From a virus, in the IMG/VR virus record IMGVR_UViG_3300043037_000028, positions 1 through 39,220 of that record: a stretch of DNA of 39,220 nucleotides; one strand, given 5' to 3'. Below are positions 14,109 through 39,220 of the stretch, one piece after another. The notes under the pieces are model-generated. The model worked only from the letters and a program-made list of their open reading frames with translations, was not told where the DNA came from and did not search any database. The first letter of the stretch is position 1. Every line of letters starts with the position of its first letter. The translations under genes and the position numbers were made by a program.

Positions 14109-14478
14109 GTATATTGGTCGTCATTATAATATTGACAATTATCACTGTGCTAACCTGGTAGCAGATTATTACCGGGATAAATTTAACGTCGAGTTACCCG
14201 TTAATGAAGCGTTTAACGTGTCGTTCACAAGATGGATGCGAAAGCACTGTGAACCGATAGCGTTACCAGTTAACGATTGCATAGTCAGGATGCGTAAAGA
14301 TGGGCGAACTCATGTAGGAATCTATACTGAATATGGTGTCCTACACAACTTCAAACCTTTTTACGGACTTGGTTCCGTAGTACACTGGCCATTAGGTGTT
14401 GTGACCAGAAATTACGACAAGGTGGAATATTTTAAATGGTCAGAATTAGATACTACGAAGACCCAACCAAGGACGTGA
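14101..14478 (+). CDS. NlpC/P60-like cysteine peptidase, tail assembly (gpK-like)
   Basis: A 125-residue protein with a CHAP/NlpC-P60-like active-site pattern: Cys in NYHCANLVADYY near residue 16, and His in HVGIYTEYGVLHNF near residue 79. Many tail tips carry such a peptidase (lambda gpK), which may open peptidoglycan at entry or help tip assembly. The protein is only the peptidase domain, without the Mov34/JAB part found in lambda gpK. It overlaps the long tip gene by 43 bp and the previous gene by 8 bp. Confidence 0.75.
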   Translation: MREYIGRHYNIDNYHCANLVADYYRDKFNVELPVNEAFNVSFTRWMRKHCEPIALPVNDCIVRMRKDGRTHVGIYTEYGVLHNFKPFYGLGSVVHWPLGVVTRNYDKVEYFKWSELDTTKTQPRT

Positions 14479-22230: not shown

Positions 22231-22509
22231 TTATAACCCTACGTATACGAATCGGATATGTTGTTTAACACTGTCAACTAGGTTTATTTTATAGCCCAGT
22301 AACATGAGGGTATCACCGATACCTTGGTATCGTAGTTCATGTAAATTACACGCTAACTTGTTGCGAATGTATCTAAACGAGACAGAATCAACATACCATT
22401 CATAACACTTGTCATGGTCGCAAGCAATCTGTTGCTTTCGTATACGAATAGCCGTGAATAGTTCGTTGAGTAATTGGTCTTCGGTCACATCCTCAAAATC
22501 AATATTCAT
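22231..22509 (-). CDS. Small hypothetical protein upstream of polymerase
   Basis: A 92-residue protein encoded between the HAD-HTH fusion and the polymerase. Its start ATG (22509) overlaps the stop of the upstream gene (TGATG). It has a charged N-terminus (FEDVTEDQLLNELF) and two Cys (residues ~31 and ~36, CDHDKC) that could bind metal; otherwise no motif is recognised. A role in replication is only suggested by position. Confidence 0.6.
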   Translation of the reverse strand: MNIDFEDVTEDQLLNELFTAIRIRKQQIACDHDKCYEWYVDSVSFRYIRNKLACNLHELRYQGIGDTLMLLGYKINLVDSVKQHIRFVYVGL

Positions 22510-23201
22510 CACAGTAACTCCATGCTGCTGATAATACCGTGTTCATCACGGATAACCTTAACGGTATCTCCCGTTCCGACGTAATCACGAACAGTACGTT
22601 GGCGCAGAGTCCCACGGTTGATACCGAAATACTCCGCCGCCTTTGTCTGATTACCGCGGAACCAGATTAATGCGTCGCGTAACGTACACACTTCAATCTG
22701 AACCGTTGGCACTTTGATTGGTTTTGGTTTGATCATTGGTTTCTTTCTCCCTCGGATTCTCGGACCAACCCGAATAACTGGAATACCTAACTTCTCAACG
22801 TAATCGAGGATAACGGGGTCATCGTCAACCCACAGTTCAATGTCGTCACGATTGGAGTCAATGAAGTCACGCTTAAAGTCGTGTGGGTGACGATGGTCAT
22901 CATGTTCGCGTTCGATGATGGTTAAATCACTACTGACACTGACCTCTACACTATTCAACCAACGGCGTGTGCCGAATTGACTATTGGTTAAAATCACCAA
23001 GTCATGCCAGTTTTCATCATAGTCGTTGCACGCAAGTGAAAATGACTCAAACAACCCTACTATCGGCTTAATCGGCTTGCCGTTCTCATTAACCCATCGT
23101 TGCCATTCAAGCCAGTGTTCGGCGCGTGACATGTCATCTGGTACGGTATGCTCGCAACCATCGTTATTGCGTAAACACCCATCTAAATCAAAAACTATCA
23201 T
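22509..23201 (-). CDS. HAD-type phosphatase fused to a Fis-type helix-turn-helix
   Basis: A 230-residue two-domain protein. The N-terminal ~145 residues have HAD-superfamily marks: IVFDLDGCLRN at the very start (nucleophile Asp and second Asp), ILTNSQFGTRRW (Thr/Ser motif II) and LWVDDDPVILDY (acidic motif IV). Phage HAD proteins of this size often act as nucleotide or polynucleotide 3'-phosphatases. The C-terminal ~50 residues form a Fis-like HTH: GNQTKAAEYFGINRGTLRQR. A basic linker (RGRKKPMIKPKPIK) joins them. ATG at 23201 overlaps the upstream stop. The enzymatic substrate and DNA target are unknown. Confidence 0.72.
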   Translation of the reverse strand: MIVFDLDGCLRNNDGCEHTVPDDMSRAEHWLEWQRWVNENGKPIKPIVGLFESFSLACNDYDENWHDLVILTNSQFGTRRWLNSVEVSVSSDLTIIEREHDDHRHPHDFKRDFIDSNRDDIELWVDDDPVILDYVEKLGIPVIRVGPRIRGRKKPMIKPKPIKVPTVQIEVCTLRDALIWFRGNQTKAAEYFGINRGTLRQRTVRDYVGTGDTVKVIRDEHGIISSMELL

Positions 23202-23644
23202 CACTCATCATCCTTAGCAGCCGCTTCACCGGCCAATGCCGCATATGCTGCACCATCGACGAAATCATTAAGACGGAATTTACCACCACGAGATCGTGAC
23301 ATTTCCAGCAGTTCCATGAATTGCCAGCCTTGCACCTCGGTGATGTTGGTTCCAAACATGGCATTGAATGCATTGACCGTGGACAGCATTGACCGCTCAG
23401 CTTCGGCATCACGCTCTGATGCACGGTTGCTGATATATTCTGATGCCATTAATAGGATATTTGTTGCCTGCGGTACGGGTGGTCTTGGTATTTCAACACC
23501 TTCGAATTTCATCTTTGTAAACGATGGGAATTTGTCACCTAGTTTTGTCACATCTATAAAATTAGGACTGGTTTTCAACTCGTCAAGCATTACACCGGTA
23601 ATTCGGTAATGCACGCCATCAATATCTACGTCATAAATATCCAT
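23201..23644 (-). CDS. DUF6378-like protein
   Basis: A 147-residue protein. The C-terminal ~85 residues (ERDAEAERSMLSTVNAFNAM, then SRSRGGKFRLNDFVDGAAYAALAGE) match the pattern of DUF6378, a phage domain often near nucleotide-metabolism genes and related in layout to MazG-type helical proteins. The N-terminus (DIYDVDIDGVHYRI) is not recognised. The ATG at 23644 follows GAGAGG 8 bp upstream; an in-frame TTG at 23650 is less likely. A strong promoter lies directly upstream, so it heads a sub-operon running through the polymerase gene. Confidence 0.65.
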   Translation of the reverse strand: MDIYDVDIDGVHYRITGVMLDELKTSPNFIDVTKLGDKFPSFTKMKFEGVEIPRPPVPQATNILLMASEYISNRASERDAEAERSMLSTVNAFNAMFGTNITEVQGWQFMELLEMSRSRGGKFRLNDFVDGAAYAALAGEAAAKDDE

Positions 23645-23680: not shown

Positions 23681-23709
23681 AGAATAATACCGACTCTATC
23701 ATTTGTAAA
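23681..23709 (-). promoter_or_regulatory. Early-class minus-strand promoter before the DUF6378-like gene
   Basis: Read on the minus strand: TTTACA (23704-23709), 17 bp, TATTCT (23681-23686). The block TTCGAAAGACTCTTTACA (23704-23721) is nearly identical at the promoters near 35906 and 37352 and similar at 30764. It gives an internal start for the distal replication genes. Confidence 0.8.
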
Positions 23710-23723
23710 GAGTCTTTCGAAAA

Positions 23724-27528: not shown

Positions 27529-28596
27529 TTACTGTGCTGGGTTAGTGTAGTTTGGTTTAGCCCAACCTTGGGTGATGATCTGTTCATCAGTCCACCCTTG
27601 ACCTTTCAACGCTTCATACGTATGAGGAGAGTCAGGGTTCATGATGACAGTACCTGTGGTCGGGATGCTGGCTGGTGCCGCTGGTGCCGCTGGTGCCGCT
27701 GGTGCCGCTGGTGCCGCTGGTGCCGCTGGTGCCGCTGGTGCCGCTGGTGCCGCTGGTGCCGCTGGTGCCGCTGGTGCCGCTGGTGCCGCTGGTGCCGCTG
27801 GTGCCTGTTCCCACCGACCCTTACCGTTTGCTACCAATTGGTCATCCGTCCAACCCACATACTGTTCACGAGTGAATTGAGTATCGGTGTGAACGTACTT
27901 CTTAACCGCTGGCATTGCGGGAGCAGTCGGAGCAGTCGGGTGATTACCGAATTGCTGACCTGTACCGGCTGGGATGTTACTGTCAGCATGACCACGGTTA
28001 GCAAATGCCTGTGTTGCTGTTTGTGCTGGGCCACGACCGAATGATTCATCATCGTAAACCATCTGCACGTTCAACAATGTCAGCGCGATAATACGTGAAC
28101 CATCTTGCTTGGTATAGGCCGATACTTCGACCTGTGCATCACACCAGCAACCACCATAGATAGTGCCCGGATTAATATCCTTGGTTCCGGTAGGGTCAAC
28201 ACAACCAACAGGGTCGCTGTTCTTGATTGATACAATCTCATAACCCGCAGTAATTGGGTCAACAGTACCAGGTAACGGATTACCTCGGTCGTCGGTCTGC
28301 ATCACAGTGTTACCGTCCACAAACTCAGGCGGATATTGAACACCAGTGTATTGCTTTACAATTGCAGAGGTGACATCGGGAACTGCAACACCCCATTCTT
28401 CCTGAATAACTTCCTTCAGTGCCTGTTTCAACGCTGATGGATTGGAAACTCCATTGATACCAGATTTCTGAATGGTGAACTGACCAGATTGCGGAAACAT
28501 CGCTTTCAACTGGTATTTACCTGATTTCTCATATGGAGTTTTCAGGTTAGGTAAGGAACACCGGAACAAACCGGTAAAGATAGTACGATTAGCCAT
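27529..28596 (-). CDS. DUF2815-like single-strand DNA-binding protein with repeat linker
   Basis: A 355-residue protein. The first ~200 residues match DUF2815, annotated in many phages as a single-strand DNA-binding protein: beta-rich, with [16 protein letters not shown] and [19 protein letters not shown]. The C-terminal part is unusual: a [19 protein letters not shown] module, then a long Ala-Pro-Ala linker from 15 perfect 9-bp repeats, then a second module, [19 protein letters not shown]. Typical DUF2815 proteins are about 180-200 residues, so the tail is an addition. It follows the Cas4-like nuclease gene by 5 bp, a common pairing. Confidence 0.8.
27671..27805. repeat. Fifteen perfect tandem copies of a 9-bp unit
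   Basis: The unit GCTGGTGCC repeats 15 times without a single difference, including third-codon positions, inside the DUF2815-like gene. On the coding strand it reads Ala-Pro-Ala. Nine is a multiple of three, so copy-number change keeps the frame. It is not a CRISPR array, since there are no spacers. Confidence 0.97.
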
Positions 28597-31063: not shown

Positions 31064-32913
31064 TTTTACCACCAGCTAAGATTAGTTTGCGTCAATACCA
31101 GATTGATGCAGTGAACGACACTGACCGTTTGTTTAATGAAGGTAACAAAGTTGTTATGACAGTGTTACCAACAGGCGCCGGTAAATCGGTCTGCAAAGCA
31201 TACTATGCCCGCCGGTACTATGAGCAAGGTAGTCGAATGCTTATCTTTGCCCATCGTGACGTGTTGTTAGAGCAGATCAGCGACAAATGTTGTTTACTTG
31301 GTGTTCCACACACATTCATCTGTTCAAGTAAGACGCTTAAAAACGCAACCAATGCTAACCTCAAGAATCACGGTGATTCATATTGGGATGAGAATTCCAG
31401 AGTGGTTTTGGTATCAGTTGACACATTTCTTGCCAGATTAAAGTCAGGAATCATTACTAAAGAGTTCTGTAACTCTATGAATTATTGGGCAATTGATGAA
31501 AGTCATCACCTCTTGCGTAGTAACCTCTATGACCATTTCAATGGTGACGTAGATAAAATAATGGACTATCTGGTGTCGAACGACATTGACACTGAAAAAC
31601 TACCGATCGGCAATAAATGGGGTATCTGCGTTGAGGTCTTGCGCAACGCTAAAGGTCATTGTTTTACAGCCACACCAAAACGAGGTGACAAACTTGGCCT
31701 TGGTTCCAAAGCTGATGGTCATGTCGATGCCATGTCTGTTACTGTGACAATGTTCGACCTTATCAAACTCGGCTCGCTTACCCCATACGAAATCTACAGT
31801 ACCGGCACCATCGATGTTAGTGGTATCAAGCATAACAAGGACGGTGAACTCAATAACAAACAGCTATATATCAGGACCAAGGAAGCCGATATCACCGGTG
31901 ATGCCGTTGCTGAGTATCGTAAACACCTCGACGGTAAACCTGTCATCACTTTCTGTGTCAACGTAGAACATGCCAAAGAAGTCACCAAGGCGTTCAACGA
32001 TGCAGGTATACCAAGTCAAATGGTTAATGCCAAAACAGCCGACAGCATCCGACAGAAAGCCGTTGCTGACTTGCGCGACGGTCGTATTCTTAACCTGGTG
32101 AACGTTGACCTGTTCGGTGAGGGTTTTGATGCTCCGGCGGTGGCCGGTGTCATCATGATGCGCCGTACCGAGTCATATTCGTTGTTCAAGCAACAGTTTG
32201 GTCGGATGCTTCGCCCGTCACCAGGTAAGACTGCTGGTATTCTTATCGATATGGTGGGTAACGTTAAATTCTTCATGATGGAATACGGTTTATCGGCACC
32301 ACACGATGACCCTAAGTGGACATTGGATAACGAGCGTAACAGTAAAAAACGCAATGACGATAATGACGACGACCCGAATAAGCCGGAGGCTATCAGTTGC
32401 GGCGATGAACTTTGCACGGCGTTTGGTTTATACGTAACCACGGATGAACAGATCAAGAAGTACGAGGGTACTGGTCTATTGTTCATTAACGGGGTTTGCC
32501 CGAAGTGTGGTTGGCATGAGGATGAACAGCACAAGAATGAACGTAAAACCGAGCTAAAATATAAGAAAGGTGATTTAGTTCGGCTCGACTTCAGCGTTAT
32601 CGATGAACTGATTAAGCAGCGTGATCATGCCCTGCAGCCAATGGAGCAATTTAGTAACTCGGTGCAACACGCTAACTTTGCTTATGCGGCTAAGGCCCAG
32701 TTTGCTCGGCGTCAACATGCGCTAAACGTATTACGGTTTAAAATTCAACGATGGTGTGAGAACCATGGCGCGGTAACGGGCCAATCAGTATCGTTGGTAC
32801 AGGCTGACTTCGAGATTAAATTCGGGGTCAATATCTTTAAGGCTCAGACCGGTACAGCATCCGAATTGGAAAAACTGTCGGCTGAGATTGATAGAGAGGT
32901 GAGTAGGTTATGA
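31060..32913 (+). CDS. DEAD/DEAH-box helicase, SF2
   Basis: A 617-residue SF2 helicase. Motif I LPTGAGKS lies near residues 36-43, motif Ia FAHRDVLLEQ near 65-74, motif II IDESHH near 144, TATPKRG (motif III) near 205, and the second RecA-like domain ends with FGRMLRPSPGKTAGI near 385 (motif VI). A zinc-like Cys set (CGDELC and CPKCGWHE) follows. It resembles Type III restriction/UvrB-like (ResIII) helicases of phage modules with DUF2800 and DUF2815. Likely role: DNA unwinding in replication or recombination. It overlaps neighbours by 4 bp. Confidence 0.9.
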   Translation: MILPPAKISLRQYQIDAVNDTDRLFNEGNKVVMTVLPTGAGKSVCKAYYARRYYEQGSRMLIFAHRDVLLEQISDKCCLLGVPHTFICSSKTLKNATNANLKNHGDSYWDENSRVVLVSVDTFLARLKSGIITKEFCNSMNYWAIDESHHLLRSNLYDHFNGDVDKIMDYLVSNDIDTEKLPIGNKWGICVEVLRNAKGHCFTATPKRGDKLGLGSKADGHVDAMSVTVTMFDLIKLGSLTPYEIYSTGTIDVSGIKHNKDGELNNKQLYIRTKEADITGDAVAEYRKHLDGKPVITFCVNVEHAKEVTKAFNDAGIPSQMVNAKTADSIRQKAVADLRDGRILNLVNVDLFGEGFDAPAVAGVIMMRRTESYSLFKQQFGRMLRPSPGKTAGILIDMVGNVKFFMMEYGLSAPHDDPKWTLDNERNSKKRNDDNDDDPNKPEAISCGDELCTAFGLYVTTDEQIKKYEGTGLLFINGVCPKCGWHEDEQHKNERKTELKYKKGDLVRLDFSVIDELIKQRDHALQPMEQFSNSVQHANFAYAAKAQFARRQHALNVLRFKIQRWCENHGAVTGQSVSLVQADFEIKFGVNIFKAQTGTASELEKLSAEIDREVSRL

Positions 32914-34771: not shown

Positions 34772-35026
34772 ATGATCTTATCAAAACTCGTCGAAGCCGC
34801 AGAAAGCCCCGTAAGTCAGACGGCGGGTAAGATACTGGATGTTGCCGGTAAAAGTAGTGTTGTGACTCAGGCAACCAATAAGGTTGTTGAAGTAGCCTCA
34901 GATGGTGCCTGGGGTTTGAATGATTATGCGATCATACTGACGATGATGGTATCAGCGATGTGGCTGATTAAACTCGGCCTAGACGTTTACATAAATATCA
35001 TGAAGTATCGCCGTGGTGATTATTAA
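34772..35026 (+). CDS. Single-pass membrane protein, end of the + strand operon
   Basis: An 84-residue protein with an N-terminal amphipathic Ala/Val/Ser-rich region and one transmembrane helix near 54-72 (AIILTMMVSAMWLIKLGL), ending in a basic YRRGDY tail. The size and location beside lysis genes suggest a holin-like or antiholin role, but no family is recognised. The stop overlaps the minus-strand gene end at 35023-35026 (shared TTAA), so the two operons meet tail to tail. Confidence 0.55.
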   Translation: MILSKLVEAAESPVSQTAGKILDVAGKSSVVTQATNKVVEVASDGAWGLNDYAIILTMMVSAMWLIKLGLDVYINIMKYRRGDY

Positions 35027-35262
35027 TCATCTTCATCAGGAATATCCTCTATAATTACTCTATTGACTATTGGTGCGGTATGTTCCCTCCAGTCATTGCC
35101 ACAGTTATCACATAACCATTGCTCTACGTTAGTACCTTTCCGCAGGTTACTCAGTACATATAGGTAAACATCAGCAGCATGGCGCGTTAGAGGTCCTAGA
35201 TGGCATAACCGTTCTAAGACATCAATACGTTCGATTAAACGCTCTATATGGCCGTCAGACAC
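35023..35262 (-). CDS. Small hypothetical protein with a CxxC motif
   Basis: A 79-residue protein: a helical start (HIERLIERIDVLERLC) then CDNCGNDWRE, a possible zinc knuckle, and an acidic end. The start is a GTG at 35262; no ATG is close. It is last in the right-hand minus-strand operon. The start overlaps the end of the small membrane protein gene upstream by 19 bp. Unknown function. Confidence 0.55.
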   Translation of the reverse strand: MSDGHIERLIERIDVLERLCHLGPLTRHAADVYLYVLSNLRKGTNVEQWLCDNCGNDWREHTAPIVNRVIIEDIPDEDD

Positions 35263-35348
35263 GGAGTAACCATTACGAAAAGAATAATACCTATGATTAT
35301 ACTAATCAGAAAACCCTGACCTTTACGGTCATCATCAAAATTATTCAT
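35244..35348 (-). CDS. 34-residue single-pass membrane peptide
   Basis: A small protein too short for most gene finders: a charged N-terminus (MNNFDDDRKGQG) followed by one transmembrane segment (FLISIIIGIILFVMVT). Its ATG at 35348 overlaps the stop of the upstream gene by 8 bp (ATGAATAA) and it overlaps the downstream GTG-start gene by 19 bp, so the three are probably coupled. Function unknown. Confidence 0.55.
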   Translation of the reverse strand: MNNFDDDRKGQGFLISIIIGIILFVMVTPCLTAI

Positions 35349-35838
35349 GGAGTAACCCCGCGTCGTAAAGTGCTTCGATAATGTCGATAGGATGAGATTT
35401 ACCTTGTGTAGCTTTTATAGCGGCATCAATGGCCTTTTTACGCTTTAGGTCGATTGATCCTATTTGGTAGTCATGGAACATTTCCAGTGAACCAGCATCT
35501 GTTCGTTCACCTATGATTAACCCAGCACTGGTAAACCCTCTGCAAACATGACTGTTACCATATCCGTCAATAAACGGTTCGCCCACCGCTGGTTTCCATG
35601 GTGTCGGTTTGAAGTCGTCGAGGGTCAGTCGTTGATAACCTCTATTTTTATAGGGATCTTTATTATCTGCTTGACCAATTAAACCGTCGCTGACTACTAC
35701 ATATTTACCATCTGGTTTAAATCCTCTAGGTGCTTCACCATATACCCAATTAAACCCTTGCTTTTCACACTCATCGAGGAATAACTCCAGAACTTCTTTG
35801 TCGTCGGTGTGAACGTATTTACCTTTAAGATTAATCAT
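35341..35838 (-). CDS. Hypothetical phage protein under a strong promoter
   Basis: A 165-residue protein. The start (MINLKGKYVHTDDKE) follows a GAGGG site at 7-8 bp, and its promoter lies in the leader upstream, so the longer frame back to 35958 is rejected. The middle has an RLTLDDFKPT phrase common in small phage early proteins; the rest is unrecognised. Likely an early protein. Confidence 0.65.
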   Translation of the reverse strand: MINLKGKYVHTDDKEVLELFLDECEKQGFNWVYGEAPRGFKPDGKYVVVSDGLIGQADNKDPYKNRGYQRLTLDDFKPTPWKPAVGEPFIDGYGNSHVCRGFTSAGLIIGERTDAGSLEMFHDYQIGSIDLKRKKAIDAAIKATQGKSHPIDIIEALYDAGLLHE

Positions 35839-35845
35839 AAAAAAA

Positions 35846-35905
35846 CCCTCTGTTACTTTGGTTGGAAGAACTATATAGGGAGAGTATAGTTCCAGTAACA
35901 GAGGG
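35846..35905. repeat. Nested inverted repeat over promoter and ribosome site
   Basis: A 12-bp perfect inverted repeat, CCCTCTGTTACT (35846-35857) and AGTAACAGAGGG (35894-35905), encloses an 8-bp one, GAACTATA (35868-35875) and TATAGTTC (35885-35892). The right arms lie in the promoter spacer, and the left outer arm covers the ribosome site of the minus-strand gene starting at 35838. It resembles an operator pair. Confidence 0.85.
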
Positions 35906-35911
35906 TGTAAA
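35883..35911 (-). promoter_or_regulatory. Strong minus-strand promoter of the 35.8-35.0 kb genes
   Basis: Read on the minus strand: TTTACA (35906-35911), 17 bp, TATACT (35883-35888). The common block TTCGAAAGACACTTTACA is at 35906-35923. Confidence 0.85.
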
Positions 35912-36013
35912 GTGTCTTTCGAAAATAATTTTATTACCCTCGTCATATCGTTCGACATTACTCAGGCTTGCGGTTCTGTCCTTTCCCGCTGGGAGATACG
36001 GACCACCTCCTTA

Positions 36014-36559
36014 TCAGAGTAGGTTACGTAAATCCGGTTTCTTGTAGTTAATCGACTTCAGGACTTTACCTGGTGGTATGGTTCCTGAGTCGTCTGATTT
36101 ACATTTAAGCACAAAAATATTTGGATCGCCAAACGATTCGACACTGCAGGTAATGCCGATAGCCTTATAATAGTCAGTGCTGGCGGTAACTTCATCCCAA
36201 CCATGGCAGACCTTGCTCATGTTACTTTTATGGATTTCCCGCCAGCATTCGAGAAATGGGATGTGGAGTCGTTCAGCGACTTTACCAAGGTGTTCAATCA
36301 TCATCTTAACCCGGGCACATTCGTAGGTTTCCCCGGCGTGAACCAGTCGCCCTATAAGCACGTAAACGGTGTCAACGATAGCGTCAGCGATTTGAACACG
36401 GTCGGTGGCTGTGGCTAACTCAGTGAGTTCTTCAACGGTTAAACCTTCATGCAATGCAATTTCGCTGGTGGACAGAGCACCGGTAGCGATAGGTAAACCC
36501 ATGGTCATACGGAATTGCTGAACGTCACCCATCATAATGGTGTAATCGAGATTATTCAT
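36014..36559 (-). CDS. MazG-like nucleotide pyrophosphohydrolase
   Basis: A 181-residue all-alpha NTP pyrophosphohydrolase-like protein. The motif LTVEELTELATATDRVQIAD followed by AIVDTVYVLIG corresponds to the EExxE...ExxD region of MazG/PRA-PH proteins. The preceding GLPIATG and the helical shape fit. Such phage proteins hydrolyse NTPs or dNTPs, or reduce host (p)ppGpp (family knowledge). The ATG at 36559 overlaps the upstream stop by 8 bp. Confidence 0.75.
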   Translation of the reverse strand: MNNLDYTIMMGDVQQFRMTMGLPIATGALSTSEIALHEGLTVEELTELATATDRVQIADAIVDTVYVLIGRLVHAGETYECARVKMMIEHLGKVAERLHIPFLECWREIHKSNMSKVCHGWDEVTASTDYYKAIGITCSVESFGDPNIFVLKCKSDDSGTIPPGKVLKSINYKKPDLRNLL

Positions 36560-37067
36560 GATCTTCAGTACCTTTAGTAAATCGACATCCGTTGTCGAAT
36601 AATTTTCCGTAACGTTCACCTACCGATTTTCCAGTTATTTCCCTGCACTTCTCAATAAACTCATCACGCTCTGATTTGCGCTTGGCGCGGTAGGTGCTAC
36701 AGCGATTAATAATGTTATCATGGTCGGCATCATTCCATACAAAGTTGTGAAAATACTCTAATTTCCCACCGGAAACCCAATGCTCAATCAGCTCACTGCG
36801 TAGCTCCTTAGTTAGCTCTTTAAATGGCTTGTCGATGGTGAAGATAGTATTATCGATAGGACGTTCAGCGATAATCCAACCAATATCGTCATCCATAAAG
36901 AAACCAGCGCCCTCATCATTGGTATAACGACCATCAGGGGTACGGTAAGCAGGTTGGAATGAACCAATACACTTAGGGTCTGCATCCCAGTTAGGTGCTG
37001 TGGTAAGAACCACACGACAATCAGGTAATGCGTTCGCTGCGTCTTCATAACTCTTATAAATCTTCAT
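36552..37067 (-). CDS. Hypothetical protein, 171 residues
   Basis: A soluble, mixed alpha/beta protein of 171 residues with an N-terminal part (MKIYKSYEDAANALPDCRVV) and a DDDIGWIIAERPIDN segment. No family is recognised. The ATG overlaps the upstream stop by 1 bp (TAATG), while its end overlaps the MazG-like start, so it is in the same operon. Unknown function. Confidence 0.6.
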   Translation of the reverse strand: MKIYKSYEDAANALPDCRVVLTTAPNWDADPKCIGSFQPAYRTPDGRYTNDEGAGFFMDDDIGWIIAERPIDNTIFTIDKPFKELTKELRSELIEHWVSGGKLEYFHNFVWNDADHDNIINRCSTYRAKRKSERDEFIEKCREITGKSVGERYGKLFDNGCRFTKGTEDHE

Positions 37068-37306
37068 TACTCACACTCCTCTACATAATCAGGTGCACCG
37101 AGTTCGTTCTTGGTGCGGTTATAAATCTTAGTATTATCGGCATGGACGGTGATACGGACGTTATCACTACGCTGCCACACATAACACCAGTCGTCGACAG
37201 TGTTAACCGCTGGTTCTGGTTTAACCGAGCTTAACCACATTAATGATAACACCATTAGTATCGCTAAACTGAACAGAAACGATGTTAAAAATTCCTTGAG
37301 TGTCAT
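37067..37306 (-). CDS. Small N-terminally anchored membrane protein
   Basis: A 79-residue protein with one N-terminal transmembrane or signal segment (FLFSLAILMVLSLMWLSSV, residues 10-28) then a soluble domain with two Cys (WCYVWQRSDN; ECE at the end), likely periplasmic and possibly disulfide-bonded. GAGGGG lies just before the ATG. First gene downstream of the promoter at 37340, overlapped by TAATG coupling. Confidence 0.6.
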   Translation of the reverse strand: MTLKEFLTSFLFSLAILMVLSLMWLSSVKPEPAVNTVDDWCYVWQRSDNVRITVHADNTKIYNRTKNELGAPDYVEECE

Positions 37307-37339
37307 GATAAACCCCTCACTTATTTAACCGATAAACAG

Positions 37340-37368
37340 AGTATAAACGACTGTAAAGAGTCTTTCAA
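37340..37368 (-). promoter_or_regulatory. Minus-strand promoter before the 37.3 kb gene
   Basis: Read on the minus strand: TTGAAA (37363-37368), 17 bp, TATACT (37340-37345). The common TTTACA lies 11 bp nearer (37352-37357) and would pair with a weaker TATCGG. The conserved block is at 37352-37369. Confidence 0.7.
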
Positions 37369-37751
37369 ACAATTCTTTCAATTATCCTCTCTACCCGCTT
37401 AATCGCCCGGTTAAGGTTACGCACACCCTTTGGTTTAACACCTGTACGGTAATACTCAGTCAGCGCGGCGACGATGGTATCGCTGGTGAAGCTGCACAGA
37501 GGAAGTAGCTTAACAGGGTCACCACTGGCCTGATACGCGATAACGCACTCAGCGGCACGATTGACAGTCTCGACGGTTCTGGTGAAGTTACTCTCAGGGT
37601 AACCGTTAACCGTATGACTGTGGGTGAAGCTGTGACCTTTAACGTAATAGTCGTGGAGGGAGTCGATACCCGCTTCGCTGGTGATACCGGTAATGGCCAC
37701 CAGCGCGTTGATATAGGACTCGGTTTCCATTCCTTGAACCAAGTAGCGCAT
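37365..37751 (-). CDS. Hypothetical protein, 128 residues
   Basis: A 128-residue helical protein of unknown function. It has a His-rich stretch (HSFTHSHTV) in the middle and a basic C-terminal helix (NRAIKRVERIIERIV) that could bind nucleic acid. It starts 2 bp after a small zinc-finger-like gene, so is part of the operon coming from 38.8 kb. The stop overlaps the next promoter. Confidence 0.55.
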   Translation of the reverse strand: MRYLVQGMETESYINALVAITGITSEAGIDSLHDYYVKGHSFTHSHTVNGYPESNFTRTVETVNRAAECVIAYQASGDPVKLLPLCSFTSDTIVAALTEYYRTGVKPKGVRNLNRAIKRVERIIERIV

Positions 37752-37753
37752 TA

Positions 37754-37927
37754 CTATTTACCTCGTTTCTGTAGTTTAAATCGTTCACGTATCTCGGCGA
37801 TACGGGTTAACCCCACCTGGCGCCGGTCGATACAGTCAGGTGTTTCATCGTCCATACCCCAGCACTTACCACACCGAGGACACTGGCACTCATCGTTACT
37901 GCGGATAATGCGGGGGTGTGGGGTCAT
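37754..37927 (-). CDS. 57-residue zinc-binding-like protein
   Basis: A short protein with Cys residues 14, 16, 19, 22 and 32: CQCPRCGKCW then C at 32, a likely zinc ribbon. The C-terminal half is basic and helical (RIAEIRERFKLQKRGK). It is separated by only 2 bp from both neighbours. Unknown function, possibly nucleic acid binding. Confidence 0.6.
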   Translation of the reverse strand: MTPHPRIIRSNDECQCPRCGKCWGMDDETPDCIDRRQVGLTRIAEIRERFKLQKRGK

Positions 37928-37929
37928 GG

Positions 37930-38544
37930 TTATAACCTCTCTAGTACCAGAAAGTAACTATGGTAAATACGAGCATGTTTCTGAACTCGCTTCTTCTCAC
38001 CTTCTTTTTCAGGCATTGACATACGAGATTTAGCAGGTAACACGAACATATCTTTAAGTCGAAAACCTGATTCGGTAGCCCAATTAATTACATTAACATG
38101 GGTACAGTGCATTTTATGGTTGTGAATAATGTCCTGACACTTAAATACCATGATACCTTTACTTTTCAGTACACGAGCCACTTCAACCAGTGTGGACTTA
38201 TAGTGTTCTTCTAATTCTGAATACAACCAATACCCGCCAAATCTGTTGGCCATGACCATATTACCGTTTCCAGTTCTACCGCTTTTAACGTAAGTAAGGA
38301 AAGGAGGATCAAATACCACACTATTAAAGTAGTTATCTGGTGCCGGTATTAATGTGCTTGACGCGCATATCACCCCATCACATTGAGGGTCTATGTCGTA
38401 CTTAAACCGTGGTTCTGGTAAGTTTTTATAAAACACTCCATTACCATACGAGACATCAGCATCGAAGTGGTCTAAACCATTCAGAGTCATGATTGACTGT
38501 AATATCTCGGTCTGGTCGTAGCTCACTGACTTAATGACACCCAT
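37930..38544 (-). CDS. DNA methyltransferase, DPPF-type
   Basis: A 204-residue SAM-dependent methylase. DPPF appears near residue 84 (SVVFDPPFLTY), the catalytic motif IV of amino-methylases. The segment YGNGVFYKNLPEPRFKYDID looks like a SAM-binding motif I variant, and the C-terminal half has LVEVARVLKSKGIMVFKCQD. The ATG at 38544 is preferred, as an alternative start at 38592 would overlap the previous gene by 43 bp. Probably methylates phage or host DNA; site and base are unknown. Confidence 0.72.
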   Translation of the reverse strand: MGVIKSVSYDQTEILQSIMTLNGLDHFDADVSYGNGVFYKNLPEPRFKYDIDPQCDGVICASSTLIPAPDNYFNSVVFDPPFLTYVKSGRTGNGNMVMANRFGGYWLYSELEEHYKSTLVEVARVLKSKGIMVFKCQDIIHNHKMHCTHVNVINWATESGFRLKDMFVLPAKSRMSMPEKEGEKKRVQKHARIYHSYFLVLERL

Positions 38545-38549
38545 ATAAA

Positions 38550-38810
38550 TCACCGTCCTTTCCGAGTCATGTTGTATAAATCGCGTGGCCATAGGTAACT
38601 ACGACTGAACACCACACCAAACACTATCAGAGATACCAACCATGTCGGGTAATGGAACTCTGACTGTAGTGTGTTCAGGTTCTCAATCTCTAGGATCAGA
38701 CGAATATCACGTACTTTAACGCGATACTGTGATGCCAATACTATCCATGTGGCGACGCCGAGGCTGGTGGCTATCCATCCTGTTAACCAGGTTATGAGGA
38801 ATGTGAACAC
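38550..38810 (-). CDS. Small membrane protein with two predicted helices
   Basis: An 86-residue protein with two transmembrane segments (FLITWLTGWIATSLGVATW near 4-22 and WLVSLIVFGVVF near 57-68) separated by a charged region. The start is a GTG at 38810, with AAGGAG 9 bp upstream, and it directly follows the stop of the upstream gene. Function unknown; possible holin-like or exclusion role not supported further. Confidence 0.55.
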   Translation of the reverse strand: MFTFLITWLTGWIATSLGVATWIVLASQYRVKVRDIRLILEIENLNTLQSEFHYPTWLVSLIVFGVVFSRSYLWPRDLYNMTRKGR

Positions 38811-39220
38811 CTATCTGTACTCCTTATCTGGACCAACGATGCCGCGCATTACTTTATGTTCGGCATTAGTGATACCGGTGACGCTGCGGGTTGCACATTT
38901 ATATACCCGTTCACCATTAACGGTGAGGCATACGTGGCCGTCTTCTTTGTCTTTACTGAGGCAGACCGAGCGACGGGTGACAACACCCTTACTGACCTTG
39001 AAGCAACCTTCAGGGCGTCGGCTACATAGTGCGGCAATGTACGCATAACCTTTATCCTCTACGGTAAGGCCAGCAATCTCAGGGACTGGTGTTGGGGTGT
39101 CGTAGGGGAGTGAGGAGAGCCACGCATCGAATTTGGCGGCATAGTTAATGGTTCGGAGGACACTGGCGCGGCTTATAAACCCGGTTTCGTCACCTGTCTT
39201 TTTGGTTACGACTAATCGAT
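38811..39220 (-). CDS. Hypothetical protein, C-terminal part; gene runs off the window
   Basis: An open frame of 136 codons with no stop up to the window end (complete start not in this linear window). It ends ...VGPDKEYR* and has several Cys (LCSRRPEGC, VCLSKDKEDGHVCL). If the molecule closes on itself, the frame continues into positions 1-40 for 14 more codons to a GTG (38-40), giving an N-terminus MGNNIIHDFRKIRD. No family is recognised. Confidence 0.65.
   Translation of the reverse strand, partial: RLVVTKKTGDETGFISRASVLRTINYAAKFDAWLSSLPYDTPTPVPEIAGLTVEDKGYAYIAALCSRRPEGCFKVSKGVVTRRSVCLSKDKEDGHVCLTVNGERVYKCATRSVTGITNAEHKVMRGIVGPDKEYR

Follow-up and report, generated by a model that had tools for sequence, protein, structure and literature searches.

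Gene layout and sequence features of the locus

The window analysed here is the whole 39,220-base stretch of IMG/VR virus record IMGVR_UViG_3300043037_000028, and the element in question is a nested inverted repeat in front of a gene for a 165-amino-acid protein (the 165-aa gene). The record belongs to a siphovirus-like tailed phage unrelated to T4. The large terminase of this phage has its best matches in Vibrio and Aeromonas phages, at about 58-66% identity. The minus-strand genes at 38810-35023 are convergent with a set of rightward genes whose end lies near 35026. Between the end of a pyrophosphohydrolase-like gene (36014) and the ATG of the 165-aa gene (35838) lies a gap of 175 nucleotides (nt), the final part of which reads TTTACACCCTCTGTTACTGGAACTATACTCTCCCTATATAGTTCTTCCAACCAAAGTAACAGAGGGTTTTTTTATG on the minus strand. 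All features of this locus described below are on that strand.

A sigma70-type promoter, TTTACA-17-TATACT, was found in the gap and matches the consensus at 10 of 12 positions. The promoter scan placed its -35 hexamer at 35906-35911; the -10 hexamer lies at 35883-35888 after a spacer of 17 base pairs (bp), and the predicted transcript start is near 35876. The Shine-Dalgarno sequence AGAGGG occupies 35846-35851, and a terminator-like run of seven T (the T7 tract, U7 in RNA) fills 35839-35845, up to the start codon.

The inverted repeat overlies the promoter and the Shine-Dalgarno sequence. Its upstream outer arm, ACCCTCTGTTACT (35894-35906), sits in the spacer between the -35 and -10 boxes and shares one base with the -35 box, and its downstream outer arm, AGTAACAGAGGGT (35845-35857), carries the Shine-Dalgarno sequence. 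The inner repeat consists of GAACTATA (35885-35892), which overlaps the -10 box, and TATAGTTC (35868-35875). The promoter thus occupies the upstream arm and the loop, and the T7 tract follows the hairpin directly, its first T pairing with the upstream arm. An earlier note on this DNA, made from the sequence alone, had described a perfect 12-bp repeat enclosing a perfect 8-bp one. Direct reading confirmed both as perfect, but the outer repeat is 13 bp long, with 36 nt between its arms. The note's observation that the arms overlay promoter and ribosome site held as well: one arm touches the -35 box and the other contains AGAGGG.

These inverted repeats are real and exceed chance expectation. Dinucleotide shuffles of the whole window contained on average 0.03 perfect repeats of at least 13 bp with gaps of at most 60. 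Only 3 of 100 shuffles held any such repeat, and the real window holds three. At a threshold of at least 12 bp and the same gap limit the mean was 0.14 per shuffle. When the promoter was compared with its own leader, the longest complement was 13 nt, and shuffling the promoter segment 20,000 times never gave one of 12 nt or more.

The 165-aa gene (35341-35838) belongs to phrog_22263, a family of unassigned function, and we took it to be the gene controlled by the element. No profile found marks its product as a lysin or an endonuclease. The start at 35838 is backed by two Vibrio phages, 1.105.O and qdvp001, whose homologues begin at the corresponding residue. A longer N-terminus from the ATG at 35958, in a frame that stays open through the hairpin, was ruled out because the homologues start at the 35838 position. 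The co-directional genes upstream (37306-37067, 37067-36552 and the pyrophosphohydrolase-like 36619-36014) together span 36014-37306 and have their own promoter, also matching at 10 of 12 positions, at 37368-37340. From 37340 to 35906 the window scan listed nothing terminator-like on the minus strand, and read-through RNA from these genes would form the hairpin. Just past the stop codon of the pyrophosphohydrolase-like gene (36014), a strong Shine-Dalgarno sequence, AAGGAGGTGG (35995-36010), stands without a start codon at the proper distance and is perhaps the remnant of a lost gene.

Predicted folding of read-through and locally started RNA

The earlier note argued that the full structure could not form in RNA, since the upstream arm precedes the expected transcript start. 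This is correct for RNA started at the local promoter, from which the upstream arm is missing. The note did not consider RNA that reads through from the upstream genes; such RNA has both arms, so the hairpin can form.

The fold predicted for read-through RNA had a free energy of -36.3 kcal/mol (z = -5.4), and none of 200 shuffles was equally stable. In this RNA the Shine-Dalgarno sequence had a predicted probability of about 0.001 or less of being unpaired. When the RNA starts near 35876, the predicted probability of being open was ~0.4-0.9 for the majority of the Shine-Dalgarno bases. Folding of the growing RNA predicted that the outer stem is completed while the U7 tract is being made. The stem has three adjacent C-G pairs near its base, U7 comes straight after the stem, and a stable, GC-containing 13-bp stem directly before a U-rich tract is what is expected of an intrinsic terminator. 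As modelled, the hairpin is laid out both as a terminator and as a ribosome-site lock. Rfam covariance models gave no match up to E = 1 across 34800-39220.

A 16-nt element shared with two other promoters

A 16-nt element, CGAAAGACWCTTTACA, was found with 0-1 mismatch at three minus-strand promoters (23719-23704, 35921-35906 and 37367-37352), all upstream of minus-strand genes. This number of matches was reached in none of 100 shuffles, even when 3 mismatches were allowed. The copy at the present locus, CGAAAGACACTTTACA (35906-35921), touches the -35 box and adjoins the outer arm, and is a candidate operator. The first copy, CGAAAGACTCTTTACA (23704-23719), lies in the same register at the promoter TTTACA-17-TATTCT. 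With flanks included, these two copies are identical at 27 of 29 nt, an AT-rich upstream part among them, and both promoters have a TTTACA -35 box and a 17-bp spacer. The third copy, TGAAAGACTCTTTACA (37352-37367), belongs to the promoter TTGAAA-17-TATACT upstream of the gene at 37306-37067, and that promoter is a likely source of read-through RNA. Here the element lies 11 bp nearer to the -10 box than in the other copies, and CGAAAGACWCTTTACA is therefore not simply a -35 box.

The three leaders share a ribosome-site style, GAGGGTTT..ATG, and differ in what surrounds it. The longest complement between promoter and leader was 13 nt at the present locus compared with 5 and 4 nt at the two sister promoters, neither of which has a hairpin. 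Seven T after GGG were seen only at the present locus; the sister ribosome sites have a shorter T-run. Because the spacer complement and the T7 tract occur together only here, against a common promoter-leader plan, the hairpin and U tract appear to be a special feature of the 165-aa gene. Judged by sequence, CGAAAGACWCTTTACA is a better operator candidate than the arms of the hairpin.

Vibrio phage LMAVpS1 (PQ284949.1, L086) contains a family of dyads, TGTAAAGTNACTTTACA, several of which lie over promoters. Fourteen 17-bp dyads were counted at up to 4 mismatches, compared with 3.6 expected, and 10 of those had at most 3. Examples lie at 14151, 16785, 27507, 36425, 40235 and 41827, and in the three that were inspected visually the dyad overlaps the -10 box of a TTGACN-17-TAAAGT promoter. 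Such a family has the look of operators for a phage repressor. On its other strand CGAAAGACWCTTTACA reads TGTAAAGWGTCTTTC, which is similar to one half of this dyad, a likeness that we treat as a lead and not as proof.

A gene for a PapB-family regulator (Pfam PF03333; 37365-37751, minus strand) lies directly upstream of the third promoter, and relatives carry PapB-like genes too. The protein encoded at 22509-23204 (minus strand) is an unusual fusion: its N-terminus matches phage polynucleotide kinase profiles and its C-terminus matches a Fis-type helix-turn-helix (HTH_8). In two related records (L086 and L080), tblastn matches to this protein cover its first part only.

Relatives and rarity of the arrangement

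Searches of phages and plasmids returned no DNA match to the locus. For a test of conservation, protein searches of viral and genome collections supplied no relative of the gene or of those next to it, and none of the 18 related viral records searched has the two genes. The sole near-identical record is identical over 31 kb and ends at 31,178, short of the locus. Exact searches with the arm-plus-promoter pattern and with the shared promoter pattern yielded nothing new.

A survey of Shine-Dalgarno leaders in a sample of ~80 fetched records found a perfect repeat of at least 12 bp over the Shine-Dalgarno region at 3 of 1,396 ATG starts preceded by such a sequence, compared with 0 of 4,188 shuffled leaders. 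The repeat described here is the second longest of the three.

Another of the three is in Vibrio phage V6Aob, where the leader of gene V6000125 (PV454620.1, near 81443-81502; 31443-31502 in L084), annotated as a protease gene, contains a 14-bp perfect repeat with the putative promoter TAGACA-16-TATAGT (10 of 12 positions) inside it, followed by a T5 run and then a Shine-Dalgarno sequence and ATG. The promoter within the repeat and the T run are as at the present locus, but the Shine-Dalgarno sequence of V6Aob stands just past the stem and not inside it. DNA matches from relatives of V6Aob stop short of this leader. If the parallel is true, promoters that veto read-through within one piece of DNA would have arisen more than once in phages.

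The related Vibrio phages 2.044.O and 393E50-1 carry a plain intrinsic terminator in a comparable position, close to where the same convergent early operon ends; this is consistent with a requirement to stop upstream transcription at this point. A further promoter-like site, CTAACA-18-TAGAAT, was noted at L035 1890-1955 inside a 13-bp perfect repeat followed by TTTTTTTGATCATG; from its sequence this is possibly another promoter inside a terminator. Elsewhere in the window, the minus-strand gene at 27529-28596, which matches the DUF2815/single-stranded-DNA-binding protein of relatives, contains a long alanine-proline (PAA) repeat.

Proposed control of the 165-aa gene

The best explanation of the locus, and in our judgement a probable one, is a veto on read-through that acts on the RNA, by termination, by occlusion of the ribosome site or by both, combined with a private promoter for the 165-aa gene. 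A polymerase arriving from the upstream minus-strand genes would copy both arms; the read-through RNA would fold into the 13-bp stem, capped by the second stem, and U7 would follow at once. Transcription from upstream should then stop just short of the start codon, and in any read-through RNA that escaped, the Shine-Dalgarno sequence would be buried. A polymerase starting from TTTACA-17-TATACT would begin inside the loop, near 35876, and make an RNA without the upstream arm. Such RNA would form no hairpin, pass the U7 tract and present an open ribosome site. Expression of the 165-aa gene, and probably of the two small genes that follow, would then depend on their own promoter alone, and the shared element CGAAAGACWCTTTACA may in turn control that promoter.

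The promoter match alone was not significant genome-wide (24 sites, compared with 32 expected from shuffles); the call is backed by the intergenic position, the 17-bp spacer and the element shared with two other promoters. Several points weigh against the explanation by a veto on read-through. With its 9-nt bulge, 9-nt loop and 36 nt between the outer arms, the hairpin is less compact than a textbook terminator, and termination is less certain because intrinsic terminators typically have a small loop and a compact hairpin. A simple terminator scan did not list it; the loop-size limit of that scan excluded a loop of this kind. In 1.2 Mb of related records, promoters inside terminator-like hairpins were not enriched as a class, in a scan whose loop limit of 45 also left out this site. 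Because this broader count gave no enrichment, the arrangement is rare and not a general habit of these phages. None of the relatives found has the gene together with the region upstream of it, and read-through from the upstream genes is inferred.

An unlikely alternative, though the strongest of those considered, is that the element is a plain intrinsic terminator of the upstream unit, into which the next promoter was packed to save space, with burial of the Shine-Dalgarno sequence a by-product. In favour of such a terminator are the three neighbouring C-G pairs near the foot of the stem with the U7 tract right behind that stem, the ordinary terminators at a comparable place in related phages and the length of the T7 tract relative to the T-runs of the sister ribosome sites. 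However, the downstream arm covers the Shine-Dalgarno sequence exactly, and occlusion is predicted for any read-through RNA. The difference from a veto on read-through is one of emphasis only. The earlier note had read the arms as a pair of DNA operators, and one could suppose that a phage regulator loops or spans the 49 bp between two 13-bp half-sites and represses the promoter. A protein bound to either arm could block expression, given that one lies against the -35 box and the other over the ribosome site, and the shared operator-like element adjoins an arm. A search for the half-site CTCTGTTACT did not bear this out: it is absent from the sister promoters and has no other exact copy in the window, where near-matches numbered 35 compared with 32.6 by chance, and in the other loci examined, with copies from the window excluded, it occurred once, in a distant record. 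That the other two promoters lack the arm sequence speaks against a shared regulator acting on it. Neither arm is itself a dyad, and DNA binding would explain neither the adjoining U7 tract nor why the arm fits the Shine-Dalgarno sequence exactly. We regard the operator pair as very improbable.

A phage regulator may still act at the locus, but not via the inverted repeat. That such a regulator, bound to CGAAAGACWCTTTACA at the three promoters, controls the promoter while the hairpin has little effect is about as improbable as the operator pair. The three copies with 0-1 mismatch exceed what shuffles produce, and the 27 of 29 nt common to two of them, the overlap of the element with different parts of the promoter in different copies, as a repressor site may show, and the similar dyad family TGTAAAGTNACTTTACA over promoters of LMAVpS1 all speak for a bound regulator. 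The 13-bp repeat is left unaccounted for, however; the two most similar copies could have arisen by duplication of a promoter that has an AT-rich upstream element, the regulator itself is hypothetical, and the LMAVpS1 dyad is only a half-good match.

Control by read-through RNA and control by a regulator could also be combined. More tentatively than the veto on read-through itself, and as a doubtful proposal, we suggest that one 70-nt piece of DNA serves as operator-controlled sigma70 promoter, intrinsic terminator and ribosome-site lock, such that the gene ignores its own operon and answers only to a phage regulator that also controls two other promoters. A phage may in this way insulate one gene within a co-directional operon without extra DNA, the same bases acting as promoter spacer, terminator stem and ribosome-site lock. 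If confirmed, the locus would also illustrate that inverted repeats overlying promoters are not necessarily operators.

Comparison with known systems

Hairpins also guard certain insertion sequences against transcription from outside. In IS200, one hairpin stops RNA arriving from outside and another hides the ribosome site of the transposase (PMC3196728). IS200 thus uses two separate hairpins, whereas at the present locus one hairpin could do both jobs, and no transposase is involved. IS10 and IS50 are likewise protected from impinging transcription, with a hairpin that hides the transposase ribosome site. The locus resembles the intrinsic terminators of phage early units in having a stem and then a U tract at a unit boundary; it differs from plain terminators in having a promoter in the spacer and loop and the Shine-Dalgarno sequence in the stem.

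The closest likeness is to genes of T4 and its relatives. In T4 gene e (lysozyme), soc, I-TevI/II/III and segB, and in mobE of Aeh1, the ribosome site of early read-through RNA is masked by a hairpin, within which a late promoter lies (PMC3014915; PMC2988022). RNA from the inner promoter lacks the 5' strand of the hairpin, and the 3' strand is the one that hides the ribosome site (PMC3014915; PMC2988022). As in that class, the stem in the long RNA takes in the ribosome site here, with a predicted unpaired probability of <=0.001. Transcripts of the T4 class start between the arms; the present locus has a 10/12 consensus promoter correctly placed for this, with the start predicted. The T4 genes have a late TATAAATA box, whereas the promoter here is of sigma70 type, and here the hairpin runs into U7 and may also terminate transcription. 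The locus would work like the T4 class, but we do not file it as a member because the class is defined by late promoters. By this analogy it may be viewed as a compact version of the T4-type switch, a scheme that is itself already known. If confirmed, it would carry the scheme of the T4 late genes over to host-type promoters, in a phage not related to T4.
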